Origin: a virus
Virus record (IMG/VR): IMGVR_UViG_3300044953_000503
Location: 1-22,500 of that record
Length of the DNA stretch: 22,500 nt
Reading direction: 5' to 3' (one strand)
Shown: positions 7,803 to 13,698 of the stretch, one piece after another
How the letters are laid out: each line of letters begins with the position of its first letter
Position numbering within the stretch: the stretch's first letter is position 1
The notes under the pieces: generated by a model
What the model was told of the DNA's origin: nothing
What the model saw: only the letters and a program-made list of their open reading frames with translations
The model's database searches: none
Position numbers and translations under genes: made by a program

Positions 7803-8336
7803 ATGGGTAAAAGTAAATTCTCAGGACCGTTCTTACCATTTCCACGGTGGGTTCTTAGTTATTTAGGAAAAGACACAATTGCCAAAGTAACTCTTCTTAC
7901 AATTCTTTTATACATGGATTCTGATACACAAGAAGTAACTACATCATATAACCACGTTGCTAAACTTACTGGTTATTCCCGTATCACTATTATTAGAGCG
8001 GTTAACCGACTAATTTCTATTGGTGTTCTTGTTCGTCAACACCGATATGGCAAGCGAGGCAACATTAGTAATCGCTATGTTGTAAACTTTAATAATCCTA
8101 AAGTATTTGAGGCCAAGGACCTAGTATCTCCCGAGACACTAGGTGGTATCCCCCCAGATACTAGTGGGGGTATCCCCCCAGATACTAGCCCTAGTATCCC
8201 CCCAGATACCCAATCAAGAATAATAAAGAACAAGAATAACCATAACAATAATCTCTCTTTCAAGAGGAGGAAACAGAAACAGGATGAAGTTATTGATGGA
8301 TACTCAATTGATTCCGACCTTCTGGACAACCAGTGA
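7803..8336 (+). CDS. Replication initiator-like winged-helix protein (lambda O-type organisation)
   Basis: From ATG 7803 the product has 177 residues; a TTG at 7761 would add 14. Residues about 23-80 form a helix-turn-helix domain: 'KDTIAKVTLLTILLYMD', 'VTTSYNHVAKLTGYSRITII', 'RAVNRLISIGVLV', with a basic wing 'RQHRYGKRGNISNRYVVNF'. This is the winged-helix type found at the N-terminus of phage replication initiators and DnaD-like proteins. Residues about 113-137 are three eight-residue repeats (GGIPPDTS, GGIPPDTS, PSIPPDTQ). Their DNA forms exact palindromic iterons, so the segment is probably a flexible linker tolerating origin sequence. An Asn/Lys-rich stretch (141-160) and an acidic end follow. 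Helicase loader, helicase and primase genes lie downstream. An initiator that binds its own gene is a strong inference from layout; a plain transcription factor is the alternative. Confidence 0.72.
   Translation: MGKSKFSGPFLPFPRWVLSYLGKDTIAKVTLLTILLYMDSDTQEVTTSYNHVAKLTGYSRITIIRAVNRLISIGVLVRQHRYGKRGNISNRYVVNFNNPKVFEAKDLVSPETLGGIPPDTSGGIPPDTSPSIPPDTQSRIIKNKNNHNNNLSFKRRKQKQDEVIDGYSIDSDLLDNQ
8125..8139 (+). repeat. Degenerate fourth iteron
   Basis: TATCTCCCGAGACAC matches TATCCCCCCAGATAC at 12 of 15 positions and starts 22 bases before the equivalent point of iteron 1. It lies within an imperfect palindrome bounded by CTAG on both sides (8121-8142). Confidence 0.45.
8146..8161 (+). repeat. Iteron 1
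   Basis: GTATCCCCCCAGATAC, first of three exact copies; GTATC and GATAC form an inverted repeat with a six-base core. It starts 24 bases before copy 2. Confidence 0.85.
8170..8185 (+). repeat. Iteron 2
   Basis: Exact second copy of GTATCCCCCCAGATAC. Flanked on the left by GGGG and on the right by CTAG overlapping its last base. Confidence 0.85.
8194..8209 (+). repeat. Iteron 3
   Basis: Exact third copy of GTATCCCCCCAGATAC, preceded by CTAG (8191-8194). The A-rich tract begins two bases after it. Confidence 0.85.
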
Positions 8337-8716
8337 CCCCCGATATGGATGATTGGGGTCCTGCTTTAGGGGGCGATTCCGTAAAGCAACAAAAGAAAAC
8401 AAAAAGTTCTGAAAAAACAACTCTTGGTTTAATGTATTACTTTAAAAATTCTATTCCGTACACAATGGATTCCACAACCAACAGCCTTGCGTTAATGAAA
8501 ACTTTTAAAGATTTACGTACTAATGGAGTGTCATACAATGACATTTATAAAATGATTGACCGTTTATTTGAAGAATTGGCGATACGCCCATTGGCTAAAG
8601 ACGTACTTCCATGGCAAGTATTCATAAAACAACGTGAAGAATTGTTGAAGTGGGTGACGGTAAACTCTCCCGATGGCGATGTGGAAGAATGGAAAAATGC
8701 GGAAGGCGCTTATTAA
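8333..8716 (+). CDS. Hypothetical replication-module protein
   Basis: The 127-residue product starts at GTG 8333, overlapping the initiator stop (GTGA); ATG 8345 is an alternative. The first 30 residues are polar and basic. The rest is helical: 'LGLMYYFKNSIPYTMDST' followed by 'NSLALMKTFKDLRTNGVSYN' and 'DIYKMIDRLFEELA', then 'LPWQVFIKQREELLKWV'. The 'AL-K-FK-LR--G-S---I--MID-LFEE' rhythm resembles C-terminal helical parts of phage replisome organisers, but I cannot name a family. Its position between the initiator and the helicase loader suggests a partner of one of them, possibly a split-off initiator C-terminal domain. That is inference only. Confidence 0.72.
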   Translation: MTPDMDDWGPALGGDSVKQQKKTKSSEKTTLGLMYYFKNSIPYTMDSTTNSLALMKTFKDLRTNGVSYNDIYKMIDRLFEELAIRPLAKDVLPWQVFIKQREELLKWVTVNSPDGDVEEWKNAEGAY

Positions 8717-8960
8717 ATTATTAGAACGTCTTACCCAAACTAAAACCTTTGATTCTGTTCTTGAAGATTTTGTAGAGAACATAAACTTTGATGATTTTAA
8801 AACAAATGAGCAGTGTGCCTGTATTTTTTGTGGTAAACCCTTTACATCATTTAAAGAACGAGCATCGCACATTATTGAACGAGATTGTGTTGTAGACTTT
8901 CAGGTATTGCCAAAGCGAAAGGTTGAGATTTTTTTGAATGACGAATACAATCCAAACTGA
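8697..8960 (+). CDS. Small C2HC zinc-finger protein
   Basis: From ATG 8697 the product has 87 residues; ATG 8673 would add eight. Cys42-x2-Cys45-x12-His58-x5-Cys64 ('CIFCGKPFTSFKERASHIIE' then 'RDC') gives a classical single zinc-finger spacing with a final Cys instead of His. An N-terminal helix-rich part ('ALIKLLERLTQ', 'FDSVLEDFVENI') precedes it, and a short basic/acidic tail follows. A single finger of this type usually binds DNA or a protein partner. The gene overlaps both the preceding gene (20 bases) and the helicase loader start (23 bases). It could be a replication accessory factor or a small regulator; sequence alone does not tell which. Confidence 0.68.
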   Translation: MRKALIKLLERLTQTKTFDSVLEDFVENINFDDFKTNEQCACIFCGKPFTSFKERASHIIERDCVVDFQVLPKRKVEIFLNDEYNPN

Positions 8961-9585
8961 GTGGCACGGTCCAAAATATTGGCGTAATAGAACGCTAGAA
9001 GAGCGATTACAAAACGCAAGAATACCAAAACGTTTTGTATCTCAAACAATGGACACTTACAACAAGAGTGTCGGTGACCAAGACGTGCATTACGCCGTTA
9101 TGACTTGGCTCAAAAACTTTTCTGCAAACCTACTTGCTGGAACTGGTCTGTATCTATTTGGAGGTACTGGTGTTGGTAAGACACATCTTGCACAGGCGGC
9201 ATTAAAAGAAGCCATCACGCAACATTCTGTAAGCGGCATTTTTGTTCCTGCCAATTTTTATATTGAAATGATGTACGACGAACTTAACAACGAAGGAAGT
9301 CTTCCAGAAGAATACGCAACTCCTTACCTTGCAAAATATATTCGTAGCGTGTACGACATTGTTGTGCTGGATTCGCTAGGTGATGAAAACGACACAGAAT
9401 TTACCCGACGTTCACTCACGGCATTAATAAACCATCGCTATAACGCACAGTTGCCAATGATTATTACCAGTCTTTACAATCCCAAAAAATTGGCCGCACG
9501 GTATGGTGAGCGCCTGCTTTCGGTGATTACTGCATGTTGCCGACTCATTCCTGTTGCTGGGACAGACCAAAGAAATGCTAGGTAA
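8938..9585 (+). CDS. DnaC/IstB-like helicase loader ATPase
   Basis: The 215-residue protein is an AAA+ ATPase of the DnaC/IstB type. Walker A is GGTGVGKT at residues 75-82, preceded by 'GLYLF'. Walker B is 'IVVLDSLGDE' at 141-150, sensor I is in 'MIITSLY' (174-180), and a conserved Arg lies in 'ERLLSVI' (191-197). An N-terminal part of about 65 residues may hold helicase. In this family the protein opens and delivers the hexameric DnaB helicase to single strands at an origin. It lies between the putative initiator and a DnaB-like helicase, which makes loader more likely than transposition helper (IstB), and no transposase is near. Length is slightly below DnaC (245). The end 'TDQRNAR' overlaps the next gene by 11 bases. 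Confidence 0.85.
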   Translation: MTNTIQTEWHGPKYWRNRTLEERLQNARIPKRFVSQTMDTYNKSVGDQDVHYAVMTWLKNFSANLLAGTGLYLFGGTGVGKTHLAQAALKEAITQHSVSGIFVPANFYIEMMYDELNNEGSLPEEYATPYLAKYIRSVYDIVVLDSLGDENDTEFTRRSLTALINHRYNAQLPMIITSLYNPKKLAARYGERLLSVITACCRLIPVAGTDQRNAR

Positions 9586-10015
9586 CGACATTGCAGAGTA
9601 CGCTCAAATTGGACAAGGAGTGTTGTTTGAGGGCGTGCTTGCAGCACAGCCAGAGGGAGCGCAAGCAGTAAAAGCAACGTTTTATAAAAATAGGGAAAAA
9701 TGGGATAAGTACATTGACCTGTGGAGGCCGAAAGACTTGGCGTTGAAAGCGATGATTGACAGCGCTGTAAGACTTGGAGTTGCAACAGACGTGTACACCT
9801 TCATAGATAACGATGCAGTGAACGCAATTGATAGATGGCTACAAAAGAAAGGAATTTCTGTATCGGTAATGCATTACCAGTCAATTGATGAACTTGCGTA
9901 TGATTTACGTTTTCAAAGGTCTATCAAAACAATTTATGTTGAAACACAAGAACAAGGTTCTGTAATTGGAATTCGTTCACACGTGGTGAACTCAGCGAAA
10001 GCGTGGATTGTCTAA
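9575..10015 (+). CDS. Hypothetical protein in replication operon
   Basis: The product has 146 residues from ATG 9575 (an in-frame TTG at 9554 would add seven). The N-terminal half is helical ('IGQGVLFEGVLAAQPEGA', 'NREKWDKYIDLW'). The second half alternates strands and helices: 'VYTFIDNDAVNAIDRWLQKK', 'ISVSVMHYQSIDELAYDL', 'IKTIYVETQEQGSVIGIRSH'. The middle 'FIDND' resembles acidic strand ends in Toprim or HAD-like folds, but no full motif set is present. I do not recognise it. It sits between helicase loader and helicase, overlaps the loader end and shares TAATG with the helicase, so it is presumably co-translated with the replisome genes. Confidence 0.72.
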   Translation: MLGNDIAEYAQIGQGVLFEGVLAAQPEGAQAVKATFYKNREKWDKYIDLWRPKDLALKAMIDSAVRLGVATDVYTFIDNDAVNAIDRWLQKKGISVSVMHYQSIDELAYDLRFQRSIKTIYVETQEQGSVIGIRSHVVNSAKAWIV

Positions 10016-11268
10016 TGGCAAGTGCAGAGCATCTCCTCATTAGCAAGGTTATTCAAACCAATGAAATTGCCCCTGTTTTGGAATCGGGAATCAAGGCCCA
10101 GCATTTTTCAGCACATTGGGAGGGTGTATGGCAATGGGTTGTTAGATATTGGCGTGAGCATCAGTCGGTTCCAAGCCCGCGTGCGTTTTTACAAGAATAT
10201 GCAGACCTTAAGTTGGTGGATGCTGAGCGCGAGCAATTCACCAATCTCATTGAGGAAATGCTTACTTCGTACCGTCAACAAAAGTTAATTGAGACCGTAG
10301 CCGCCGCAGTCCCACTGCTTAATGACAACAAGACCGCAGATGCCCTCCAGACGCTATTAGATGGCGTACAAACCGCCTCAGCGGACGTTGCCCGCCTCAG
10401 AGACATAGACCTGATTCAGACCTGGGAGGAGCGCATAAAGCGCTACGAGTTGATGAGGGACACCCCAAATGCAATTCGTGGAATTCCGACAGGATTTAAC
10501 GGGTTGGACAGAATTACATCAGGATTGCGACCACAGCAGTTGATTACATTTGTTGGTGAGGCAAAGAAAGGTAAATCACTAATTACTCTCATCATGGCTA
10601 ATGCCATTCACACGCACGGAAAAGTGCCTTTGTTTATTTCGTTTGAAATGAGCATTGAAGAACAATCAGCCCGTTACGATGCAATCATTTCAAAGATTGC
10701 GCATACCCGCATCATGCGAGGTGACCTGACCCGAACCGAGTTAGACCACATCAAACGAGTTACTTCAATGCGTAAAAACATGCATCCATTTTTAATGTCA
10801 GAAGACATCTCTTCACTTACCACCGTTAGCGCCATTGCCAGCAAAGTTCAACAATTAAAGCCAGACGTGCTCATTGTTGACGGCGTGTATTTGATGGATG
10901 ACGAAAACGGTGAGCCAAAGGGTTCGCCGCAGGCACTCACAAATATCACACGGTCGCTTAAACGTCTATCCCAACGTTTTGATATGCCTATCGTTGGCAC
11001 TACACAGGCGTTGGGGTGGAAGTTGGGCAACAGGCGCACACGACAAATTACTGCTGATGCAATTGGCTATACCTCATCATTTGCCCAAGATTCTGACCTC
11101 GTGGTTGGCGTGGAGACGGACCCTGATATAGATGACCAGGCAATATTACGCGTTGTTTTGGCGCGTACGGCCCCAAAGGGCGAAATAAAAATTAAGTGGG
11201 ATTGGCAAAACATGGATTTCTCGGAGGTGATTGAGAATGACGATAACAATGACAACTGGTATTACTAA
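10015..11268 (+). CDS. Replicative DnaB-like DNA helicase
   Basis: This is a 417-residue RecA-fold helicase. The N-terminal part (1-115) has the helical pattern of the DnaB N domain ('AEHLLISKVIQTNEIAPVLE', 'HFSAHWEGVWQWVVRYWREH'). A linker leads to 'RGIPTGFNGLDRITSGLRPQ' (155-174), the usual lead-in to the motor domain. Walker A is GEAKKGKS (181-188), the catalytic Glu is E211 in 'FISFEMS', and Walker B is 'VLIVDGVYLM' (285-294), where most relatives have 'IDYLQ'. 'PIVGTTQALGW' (325-335) is the strand often read 'TQL'. The tail is acidic and Asn-rich (403-417). It would unwind DNA 5'-3' at the fork. ATG 10015 overlaps the previous stop (TAATG). Confidence 0.9.
   Translation: MASAEHLLISKVIQTNEIAPVLESGIKAQHFSAHWEGVWQWVVRYWREHQSVPSPRAFLQEYADLKLVDAEREQFTNLIEEMLTSYRQQKLIETVAAAVPLLNDNKTADALQTLLDGVQTASADVARLRDIDLIQTWEERIKRYELMRDTPNAIRGIPTGFNGLDRITSGLRPQQLITFVGEAKKGKSLITLIMANAIHTHGKVPLFISFEMSIEEQSARYDAIISKIAHTRIMRGDLTRTELDHIKRVTSMRKNMHPFLMSEDISSLTTVSAIASKVQQLKPDVLIVDGVYLMDDENGEPKGSPQALTNITRSLKRLSQRFDMPIVGTTQALGWKLGNRRTRQITADAIGYTSSFAQDSDLVVGVETDPDIDDQAILRVVLARTAPKGEIKIKWDWQNMDFSEVIENDDNNDNWYY
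11223..11230 (+). promoter_or_regulatory. Strong ribosome binding site for the primase
   Basis: GGAGGTGA ends six bases before ATG 11237 and lies inside the helicase gene. It decides for ATG 11237 over TTG 11231. Confidence 0.65.
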
Positions 11269-12154
11269 TATTGAAGACGCTCTTTTTGCCCTTGGCGTGG
11301 ACGTAAGGCGCAACTACGGAAATGAAATTGTCGGCTGTTGCCCTGTTCACGAGAAGAGGACGGGAAAATTAGACAGGAGGCCCTCGTGGTCTATTAATAC
11401 CACCACAGGTCTTTGGATGTGTCATTCGTGTGGCGCTCGTGGCAACCTCCCTCAATTAGTTTATGAAATTACTGGTGACCACTCTGCCATTGCCTCTATC
11501 TATTCTTTTATTATCAACAATGGCTTAGAGCGTTTACAAAACGGTCCAATTATTCCAAAGCCATCAACAGTTGACTGGGAGACCTACATCGCGTTTGACC
11601 AACCACCCGATGAGCAGTTGGCATCCAGACATTTGTCGCGCGAATCCGCAGAACGCTATGGACTTCTCTGGAACCACAAGAAAGGCTCATGGATAATTCC
11701 AATTATGTCAGAGACAAATGAACTTGTTGGATGGCAGGAAAAGTCACAAGATTACGTTCGTAACTATCCAATAGGTGTTAAGAAATCTCAAACATTGTTT
11801 GGTGCCGACGCACTGGCAACTCGTGATGCAATTCTTGTAGAATCACCACTTGACGTTGTACGTTATGCTTCTGAATTTCAGCACAACTGCTGTGTGGCAA
11901 GTTACGGTGCATCGTTAAGCAACGAACAAATTAAAATGTTGTCACACCTGTGCGATAGTCTTACAATTGCCTTAGACAACGACGAGGCTGGCATCTCCTC
12001 AGCAAAAAAATTATTAAAAAAGTTTCCAACAATGAAAAAGGGGATTAAATGGTTAAAGTATTCACACACATTAGCAAAGGACATTGGAGAAATGACAAAG
12101 GAAGAAATACAGGAAGCGGTGAATAATGCTTCAGTGCTTCCTTGGTGGCTGTAA
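11237..12154 (+). CDS. DnaG-type primase (CHC2 zinc finger + TOPRIM)
   Basis: The 305-residue protein has the two core parts of bacterial-type primases. The zinc site is Cys35-Pro-Val-His38 with Cys62-His-Ser-Cys65 ('CCPVHEKR' and 'WMCHSCGARGNL'), the CHC2 pattern. The TOPRIM catalytic part has 'AILVESPLDVVRYAS' (Glu202) and 'SLTIALDNDEAGISSAKKL' (Asp247 and Asp249), followed by 'KDIGEM'. It is about half the size of E. coli DnaG and appears to lack the C-terminal helicase-interaction domain. It would make RNA primers on the lagging strand beside the DnaB-like helicase. The start overlaps the helicase end by 32 bases; the stop shares TAATG with the next gene. Confidence 0.9.
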   Translation: MTITMTTGITNIEDALFALGVDVRRNYGNEIVGCCPVHEKRTGKLDRRPSWSINTTTGLWMCHSCGARGNLPQLVYEITGDHSAIASIYSFIINNGLERLQNGPIIPKPSTVDWETYIAFDQPPDEQLASRHLSRESAERYGLLWNHKKGSWIIPIMSETNELVGWQEKSQDYVRNYPIGVKKSQTLFGADALATRDAILVESPLDVVRYASEFQHNCCVASYGASLSNEQIKMLSHLCDSLTIALDNDEAGISSAKKLLKKFPTMKKGIKWLKYSHTLAKDIGEMTKEEIQEAVNNASVLPWWL

Positions 12155-13698
12155 TGTTTAAAGGGACTTTGTATCCGTTTCAAATTGAAGCCAAAGAGCG
12201 CATGGTTGACCGTGGCAAAATGCTTCTTGCGGTTGTCATGGGTGGTGGGAAAACCGTAATTACTATTGATTCATTAGAAACGTTGTTTCAACGTGACGAC
12301 ATTTCCCGAGCAATTATTATCGTTCCCGCTTCCCTCAAGTACCAATGGTTACGAGAAATTAATAAATTCACTAATTCAAAAGCAATAGTCATTGATGGAA
12401 CCCCTAAAATTAGAGAAGGATTGTGGCGCGCGGCAGTTCGCGCAAAGTACGTAATTATCAACCCAGAAGCGCTTATTAAAGACCAACAATTTTACAACAT
12501 GTTGCGATTTGAAGCAATGGTTATTGATGAAGCAACGATTATTAAATCACCTCGTGCCAAACGTTCTAGGCTTCTCAAAAAACTTGGCAAAAAGTGTTTG
12601 TATCGGTTTGCCCTAACAGGACAACCAATTGAAAACAAGCCAGAGGAATTGTTTTCCATCATGGAATTTGTGGATTCCACGGTTCTTGGAAAATTTAATG
12701 TCTTTGATAATACTTTTATTGTTCGTGATAAATTTGGAAAACCAATTAGATATCGTAATTTAAATTTACTTACTAAGTCCATGCAATACGCCATGGTTAG
12801 AAAAAGCAGAAAAGACATTGCTGACCAATTGCCAGATATAATATCTACGGTTATTCCAGTGCAATTTGACGACGCTGGGGCAATGGCATACACCAAAATT
12901 GCTCAAGACCTTCTTTTGGAAATACAAAAAGCATTTAAAGACCACGGTCGTGGGTTTGACCTTTGGGCACATTACAACGGCAATCCCGCTGCAAGCGAGG
13001 CTCAGGGCCAAATAATGGCGCGTCTCACCATCCTTCGCATGTTGTGCGACAACCCAGACCTTGTGATGTTTTCGGCAAAACAATATGAAAAAAATAATGG
13101 CAATGAAGGAAGTCGCTATGCCAAAGACATTGTTGATTTAAACGTAGTAAACAAAGAGTGTTTGCAACCAAAAATGGATGCAGTTATTAATTACATAGAC
13201 AATATTTTAAATGAGGACCCAGACAACAAAGTAGTTTTGTTTTCATTCTTTAAAAATAATTTAACTTTGTTACAAAAAAACCTTCAAACTATTACAAACA
13301 GCGTATTATTTACAGGAGATATGAATTCATCTCAAAAAGATGCGGCAAAACAAAAGTTTAGTAATGATAAGAACGTTAGAGTGTTCCTGTCTTCCGATGC
13401 TGGTGGCTATGGTGTAGACCTTCCACAAGCAAACTATCTTATTTCTTATGATTTGCCATGGTCGGCTGGAAAACTGGACCAACGCGAGGCGCGTATCGTT
13501 CGCCTATCTTCGCAACACCCCCACGTTACCATTGCCTCATTCGTAATGAAAGGTAGTATTGAAGAACGACAGTATGAAATGCTTCAACAAAAAAGAGGAA
13601 TCAACGAAGCATTTATTGACAAAGGTTATGATACTCAGGGTCGGTTTGAACTTACGTTAAGTTCGCTAACATCTTTTTTACAACACTCGGAGGTGTAA
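12154..13698 (+). CDS. SNF2-type superfamily 2 ATPase/helicase
   Basis: The 514-residue protein has the SF2/SNF2 motif series. A 'LYPFQIEAKERMV' Q-motif-like start (7-18) is followed by Walker A MGGGKT (29-34), motif Ia 'AIIIVPASLKYQWLREI' (53-69), motif II 'VIDEAT' (123-128) and motif III 'ALTGQPIENKPEELFSIM' (153-170). In the second lobe are 'VVLFSFFKNNLTLL', 'VRVFLSSDAGGYGVDLPQAN' (motif V) and 'LDQREARIVRLSS' (motif VI). Such enzymes translocate on duplex DNA; in phages they may clear proteins, remodel forks or assist recombination. It starts in TAATG with the primase and ends before a ribosome site for the next gene. Length fits short phage members; no extra domain is seen. Confidence 0.9.
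   Translation: MFKGTLYPFQIEAKERMVDRGKMLLAVVMGGGKTVITIDSLETLFQRDDISRAIIIVPASLKYQWLREINKFTNSKAIVIDGTPKIREGLWRAAVRAKYVIINPEALIKDQQFYNMLRFEAMVIDEATIIKSPRAKRSRLLKKLGKKCLYRFALTGQPIENKPEELFSIMEFVDSTVLGKFNVFDNTFIVRDKFGKPIRYRNLNLLTKSMQYAMVRKSRKDIADQLPDIISTVIPVQFDDAGAMAYTKIAQDLLLEIQKAFKDHGRGFDLWAHYNGNPAASEAQGQIMARLTILRMLCDNPDLVMFSAKQYEKNNGNEGSRYAKDIVDLNVVNKECLQPKMDAVINYIDNILNEDPDNKVVLFSFFKNNLTLLQKNLQTITNSVLFTGDMNSSQKDAAKQKFSNDKNVRVFLSSDAGGYGVDLPQANYLISYDLPWSAGKLDQREARIVRLSSQHPHVTIASFVMKGSIEERQYEMLQQKRGINEAFIDKGYDTQGRFELTLSSLTSFLQHSEV

Follow-up and report, generated by a model that had tools for sequence, protein, structure and literature searches.

The stretch of DNA analyzed here, called the window, comprises 22,500 bases of a single virus record, IMGVR_UViG_3300044953_000503. 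All of its genes lie on the plus strand, with replication genes on the right and, judged by eye from the open reading frames (ORFs), tail/baseplate-like genes on the left. A gene for a 177-amino-acid (aa) winged-helix protein occupies positions 7803 to 8336 (plus strand), and within it lie four 16-bp palindromes followed by an A-rich tract. We consider it very likely that the region from 8121 to 8252 is the initiator-binding core of a phage replication origin, placed inside its own initiator gene.

The 177-aa protein matches the Pfam family HTH_36 (E value of 8e-7) and the O-like "replication initiation" PHROGs 270, 391, 428, and 678 (E values of 3e-13 to 7e-11), which bears out the winged-helix assignment made in an earlier sequence-only reading of this DNA. 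A winged helix-turn-helix (HTH) fold is predicted at residues 15 to 95, approximately, with predicted local distance difference test (pLDDT) scores of 81 to 90 in most blocks. A fold search returned MarR, CodY, and TubR types as the closest solved folds, a generic outcome, and a sequence search of solved structures gave only marginal winged HTH matches, to SlyA and CodY. The TubR match raises the idea of a partition site, in which a TubR- or ParR-like adaptor would bind the array much as a centromere is bound, and partition sites are also iterated. The Foldseek E values behind that match are weak (2e-3 and above) and of a kind that any winged helix would give, the neighboring genes encode replication proteins, and no TubZ, ParM, or ParA gene was found among the window ORFs scanned. 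We rejected a partition site on these grounds as highly improbable.

The sequence-only reading had reported three copies of GTATCCCCCCAGATAC, at 8146, 8170, and 8194, and had described each as an inverted repeat of GTATC and GATAC; the exact copies were confirmed. They are iterons 2, 3, and 4 (8146 to 8161, 8170 to 8185, and 8194 to 8209, plus strand), all of the form GTATC-N6-GATAC. A degenerate fourth unit had also been noted; it was located at 8124 to 8139 on the plus strand (GTATCTCCCGAGACAC, iteron 1), where one half-site is changed to give GTATC-N6-GACAC and where the iteron with its flanks makes a 24-bp imperfect palindrome (8120 to 8143). The perfect 24-base register that had been described holds for iterons 2 to 4 but not for the whole array, which has spacings of 22, 24, and 24 bases and spans 86 bp. 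Because iteron 1 lies 22 rather than 24 bases upstream of iteron 2, it stands in a codon frame different from that of the other three, encoding LVSPETL where iterons 2 to 4 encode GGIPPDT. Five CTAG motifs frame the array, at 8121, 8139, 8161, 8185, and 8191. When the same peptide was randomly recoded with synonymous codons 100,000 times, 6 recodings had three identical 16-mers and 1 had three palindromes with perfect arms. Palindromes that fit the pattern loosely, with 2 mismatches allowed, are not in themselves rare in the window; what exceeds chance is how the palindromes cluster, how they are spaced, and that relatives conserve them.

The asymmetric A-rich stretch that had been seen directly after the array was likewise confirmed, at 8210 to 8252 on the plus strand, with 77% A+T and 60% A. 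This putative unwinding element is among the most A-rich 43-nucleotide stretches of the initiator gene. Three direct repeats run along the plus strand from 8215 to 8253, CAAGAATAA at 8215 to 8223 and again at 8231 to 8239 and CAATAATC at 8246 to 8253, with a pitch of 16 and then 15; taken alone, the window repeats are weak (shuffle P of 0.065).

Conservation of the palindromes as DNA

Relatives were collected by direct search, which gave 18, and by profile search, which gave 80 loci. Nearly all of them have three or four palindromes, spaced in the same way, with the half-site GTGTC/GACAC. The exact 16-mer, whose conservation in related phages had been proposed as a check, is not kept; what the relatives keep is the class of palindrome and its spacing. 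A census of 49 distinct arrays, from the window and its relatives, gave four units in 44 arrays, units in more than one codon frame in 47, and half-site positions 1, 2, and 5 that are essentially invariant. Spacings were 22 (34 cases), 23 (16), 24 (73), 25 (13), and 30 (4), with three others. Since the units fall in several codon frames, one palindrome is written in protein as VSxxT, as xVxxDT, or, in other families, as GCHxRH, and the relatives' peptides over the palindromes vary accordingly (SVTGDT, VSPMTP, and GCHPRH). It had been foreseen that homologs might keep the PPDT protein repeat and lose the palindrome or its spacing. The opposite was found, palindrome and spacing persisting while the peptide varies, and so the origin reading was not refuted on this point.

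At the codon level, eleven homologous genes were compared for the share of identical codons at positions where the amino acid is identical. This synonymous codon identity is approximately 0.35 to 0.6 in most of the helix domain, versus approximately 0.75 to 0.97 over the array and the A-rich tract, with 0.95 to 0.97 over the tract itself. Such a pattern argues for selection on the DNA, not on the PPDT peptide, and for conservation of the iterons and the A-rich tract as one DNA block. It also bears on the explanation that selection acts on the protein repeat GGIPPDT, the DNA repeat being a by-product of recent duplication. The three identical window units do look as they would after a duplication, and they encode a repeated peptide, but unit 1 encodes LVSPET in another frame, the palindrome persists where the peptide differs, and the residues encoded by the array are predicted to lack structure (pLDDT below 50). 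We rejected this explanation, which is contradicted by the codon-frame census and by the synonymous conservation, as having next to no probability.

Close relatives keep CCAATCAAGAATAAC..AACAAGAATAACCATAACAAGAAT within the A-rich tract, and the tracts of relatives hold direct repeats around CAAGARTAA, three or four in number and at a pitch of 13 to 16, the first copy standing in a codon frame unlike that of the remaining copies. In a subgroup of more distant relatives, a TCTAGAG-type repeat takes the place of the CAAGARTAA type. Across these sequences, conservation is a stronger argument for the tract repeats than their single-sequence significance, which is modest.

Among cultured phages there were only two distant partial matches, Stenotrophomonas phages BUCT708 and BUCT709 at 34% identity; a profile search of genome contigs for prophage or cellular hosts gave 33 pattern matches, none of them a relative, and a scan with an L194-type fused protein added one weak new relative and no more. 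Single palindromes of the form GTATCCNNNNGGATAC also occur elsewhere in related phage contigs (G001:C1:61472, G002:C1:37867, G003:C1:17995, and others), in two of the related contigs approximately 3.4 kb downstream of the array.

An unbiased scan of all viral contigs for two tandem palindromes, which made no use of protein information, found at least 120 stretches with GTGTC, 57 with GTATC, 21 with GTTTC, and 18 with GTCTC; a scrambled control palindrome gave 0 stretches in the same scan. Among the matches listed, 75 dereplicated representative ORFs lie over GTGTC or GTATC arrays, and these include 43 matching replication-initiation PHROGs, 34 matching HTH_36, and 5 matching Phage_rep_O. Also among the matches listed, arrays with at least three exact GTGTC-N6-GACAC units fell in winged-helix initiator-type ORFs in 55 of 55 cases, and arrays with at least three exact GTATC units fell in winged-helix ORFs in 13 of 17, the label being assigned in both counts by reading the sequences and being supported by, not identical to, the hidden Markov model counts. 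Two-unit GTATC arrays are a mixed group, mostly outside winged-helix ORFs. Taken as a whole, the palindrome arrays of the scan show a general association with winged-helix initiator genes.

Recognition-helix residue 61 and the half-site

Structure model, alignments, and column statistics together place the predicted recognition helix at residues 60 to 73 (codons at 7980 to 8021, plus strand), and column statistics single out its second residue, Ile61 (codon at 7983 to 7985, plus strand), as the one tracking the half-site. Of the family members examined, the window phage alone has GTATC in all units, and Ile61 was seen in no other; its relatives have Arg or Ser at this position and GTGTC sites. 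The half-site appears to have changed from GTGTC, as in close relatives, to GTATC in the window together with a change from Arg or Ser to Ile61. One relative, L287 (L287:5001-5513), has Thr at residue 61 and mixed units, GTGTC/GATAC and GTATC/GACAC, and is a possible intermediate of the switch.

The association was examined over 86 alignment columns in 52 divergent array-bearing winged-helix proteins, 38 with GTGTC and 14 with GTATC arrays; L130 and L042 were left out of the residue-61 test, the array or helix position being unclear, and a deep alignment of short domains may misplace single rows. Residue 61 is Arg or Lys in 26 of the GTGTC proteins, Ser in 9, and Ala in 3. The GTATC proteins have Ile, Leu, Val, or Pro in 11 cases and Arg or Lys in none. 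No other column predicts the half-site as well (z of 19.5 versus 6.0 for the next), and the raw Fisher P value is 6e-9. With related sequences collapsed, a hydrophobic residue stands at 61 in 8 of 10 GTATC lineages versus 0 of 18 to 22 GTGTC lineages (P of 4e-6 to 1.4e-5). In helix-turn-helix proteins, arginine typically contacts guanine and an aliphatic side chain a thymine methyl group, and the covariation at residue 61 fits this chemistry. Since residue 61 predicts the half-site, the palindromes are probably binding sites for the very initiator whose gene contains them.

The same covariation, being with a DNA-recognition helix, argues against a role of the palindromes in the mRNA, as hairpins governing translation or decay of the operon. 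Inverted repeats could give short stems. In relatives, however, mismatches at arm position 4 are overwhelmingly of the non-wobble kind (52, versus 1 G-T), and the variant half-site GTGAC occurs in either arm, as for DNA half-sites and unlike RNA stems. Hairpins were rejected on these grounds and strike us as very improbable.

A small residue, Ala or Ser, apparently stands at the residue-61 position in winged-helix proteins over the GTCTC arrays L326, L331, L336, L337, and L343 and the GTTTC array L325, often with an aromatic residue two or three positions later (SKATYFR, SHATFYR, PRSTFYK, and SKATIWR). This pattern hints that the code may extend to other bases.

Lambda, operator control, and the origin reading

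In phage lambda, the replication origin lies within gene O, its iterons are inverted repeats bound by O dimers, and O binding opens a neighboring 40-bp A+T-rich region (PMC5043065; PMC7466680). Examined in the same way as a positive control, lambda showed four annotated iterons at spacings of 20, 24, and 23 in three codon frames, then a 65% A tract with a comparable repeat, ACAAAAGA, at a pitch of 15 and 12. The claim that lambda O has the same organization is borne out by this anatomy. The window shares with the lambda origin and with Stx-phage O four inverted-repeat iterons inside the initiator gene, in several codon frames and 20 to 24 bp apart; it further shares with them a same-strand A-rich tract with short repeats after the iterons and a winged-helix-type initiator gene 5' of a loader gene (PMC7466680; PMC5043065). 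The array spans 86 bp versus 85 bp in lambda. The window half-site is GTATC, whereas lambda has an ATCCC-type iteron. The window protein has 177 aa versus 299 for lambda O, lacks the C-terminal domain, and ends soon after the A-rich tract; in Pfam it was reported as HTH_36 alone, with no Phage_rep_O match. In place of P and the host DnaB, the window has a DnaC-like AAA+ loader, its own DnaB, and a primase. The system would be functionally like the lambda origin but is, by domain, loader, and length, outside the lambda O family.

We propose the following mechanism, by analogy with lambda and from the covariation. The winged-helix protein would bind each GTATC-N6-GATAC palindrome in its own gene, as the covariation suggests, probably in dimeric form, each half-site receiving one recognition helix. 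The four sites, approximately two helix turns apart, would build a nucleoprotein complex, and this complex, as in lambda, would strain and open the adjacent A-rich tract with its repeats. Gene order suggests that the phage DnaC-like loader would then place the phage DnaB at the tract, perhaps with recruitment through the product of the next gene, ORF2. Primase would follow, and primase and polymerase would start synthesis here.

Several points weigh against this reading. GC and AT skew at fourfold-degenerate sites, computed for the window and three related contigs of 87 to 97 kb, gave no clean origin signature. The window and two close relatives have a skew step near the array, and none was seen in the third contig; since the step falls at the border where structural genes give way to replication genes, we did not use it as origin evidence. 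In the window, the AT skew near the array goes from approximately -0.3 to 0 at that border. Such arrays are not exclusively intragenic, since four long ones of the GTATC type are found where there is no large ORF. Long arrays outside any ORF of 100 aa are those of L156, L183, L192, and L193 (GTATC-N6-GATAC) and of L320 (GTTTC-N6-GAAAC), which may be origins or operators of this kind in intergenic positions.

The last consideration is that the array may be an autoregulatory operator, bound by the winged-helix protein to control its own operon, with no origin present. A winged-helix protein on palindromic sites is a typical arrangement for a transcription regulator, MarR and CodY types are besides TubR the closest solved folds, and the covariation at residue 61 argues for binding while being silent on its role. 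Set against this, the array lies approximately 320 bp downstream of the initiator start codon and abuts a co-conserved A-rich repeat tract, the protein matches replication-initiation families, loader, helicase, and primase genes come after it, and the same layout in lambda O is a proven origin (PMC7466680; PMC5043065). We regard an operator without an origin as unlikely; an operator function could coexist with an origin. The proposal of a lambda-type origin inside the initiator gene is supported by the conservation at the DNA level, the lambda anatomy, and the covariation.

The intragenic-iteron layout is already known. Iteron plasmids (RepE, pi, RepA, and TrfA) likewise have repeated initiator sites beside an A+T-rich opening region, but the iterons of the window phage are palindromes inside the initiator gene. 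HTH_36 and the O-like PHROGs 270, 391, 428, and 678 are matched by the window protein and 43 of the 75 array-bearing ORFs, yet the family descriptions seen mention neither embedded palindromic iterons nor a recognition-helix code. The open-licence PMC literature searched holds work on lambda and Stx iterons and reviews, but not these palindromes or a recognition-helix code. New with respect to that literature are the class of half-site and how very widely it is spread, as well as the residue-61 code and a possible splitting of the initiator.

ORF2 and the rest of the replication operon

ORF2 (8333 to 8716, plus strand) overlaps the end of the initiator gene by 4 nucleotides and follows it directly in nearly all relatives. 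It encodes a 127-aa protein predicted to be all helical (core pLDDT of 84 to 90), with no significant family in Pfam or PHROGs. Its best-conserved part weakly resembles lambda-O-type C-terminal domains, aligning in a single hhalign comparison with their conserved core at a P of 0.0038, versus 0.51 and 0.59 for controls. A BFVD fold search gave only matches with E values above 0.2, among them phage HTH proteins, replisome organizers, and a protein annotated as "phage conserved hypothetical protein C-terminal domain." That ORF2 is the detached C-terminal half of the initiator, recruiting the loader or helicase, is a plausible guess that we put at slightly under even chances. Were it so, two functions of lambda O, origin binding and loader recruitment, would be separable for study.

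We lean modestly toward a broader interpretation, in which a class of phage initiators with a very wide spread shares an own-gene origin grammar, GTRTC-N6-GAYAC, and a one-residue code, whereby Arg or Ser versus Ile, Leu, Val, or Pro at the N terminus of the recognition helix would set half-site base 3 as G or A. The window phage would represent a recent switch from GTGTC to GTATC, with one unit half-converted, in a lineage with a split initiator, that is, a DNA-binding/origin gene and a helical recruiting ORF2. To our knowledge, replication origins have hardly ever been identified in uncultured phages. Palindromes persisting across codon frames in an initiator gene would mark an origin from sequence alone, a signature that can be scanned for. 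The covariation would amount to a testable specificity code for origin recognition, and a code at residue 61 would explain how origin specificity diverges among related phages sharing a host.

Downstream of the initiator, the gene order is ORF2, a 95-aa ORF, the DnaC-like loader, a 153-aa ORF, the DnaB helicase, and the primase. The loader, helicase, and primase genes expected there hold up in Pfam and PHROG matches within the same operon: the DnaC-like helicase loader at 8938 to 9585 (PHROG 50 with an E value of 1.5e-39; IstB/DnaA AAA+ Pfam matches), the DnaB-like replicative helicase at 10003 to 11268 (PF03796; E value of 7e-27), and the DnaG-like primase at 11231 to 12154 (Toprim_2 and a CHC2 zinc finger in Pfam; PHROG 47 with an E value of 4e-47), all on the plus strand. 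The small ORFs between initiator and helicase, at 8673 to 8960 and 9554 to 10015, have no significant family in Pfam or PHROGs; within the first there is a zinc-finger-like segment, and it matches NinG weakly (E value of 0.011). Beyond the primase come an SNF2-type helicase (12142 to 13698), which lies within the phage replication operon, a family A DNA polymerase, and a RecA-like protein.
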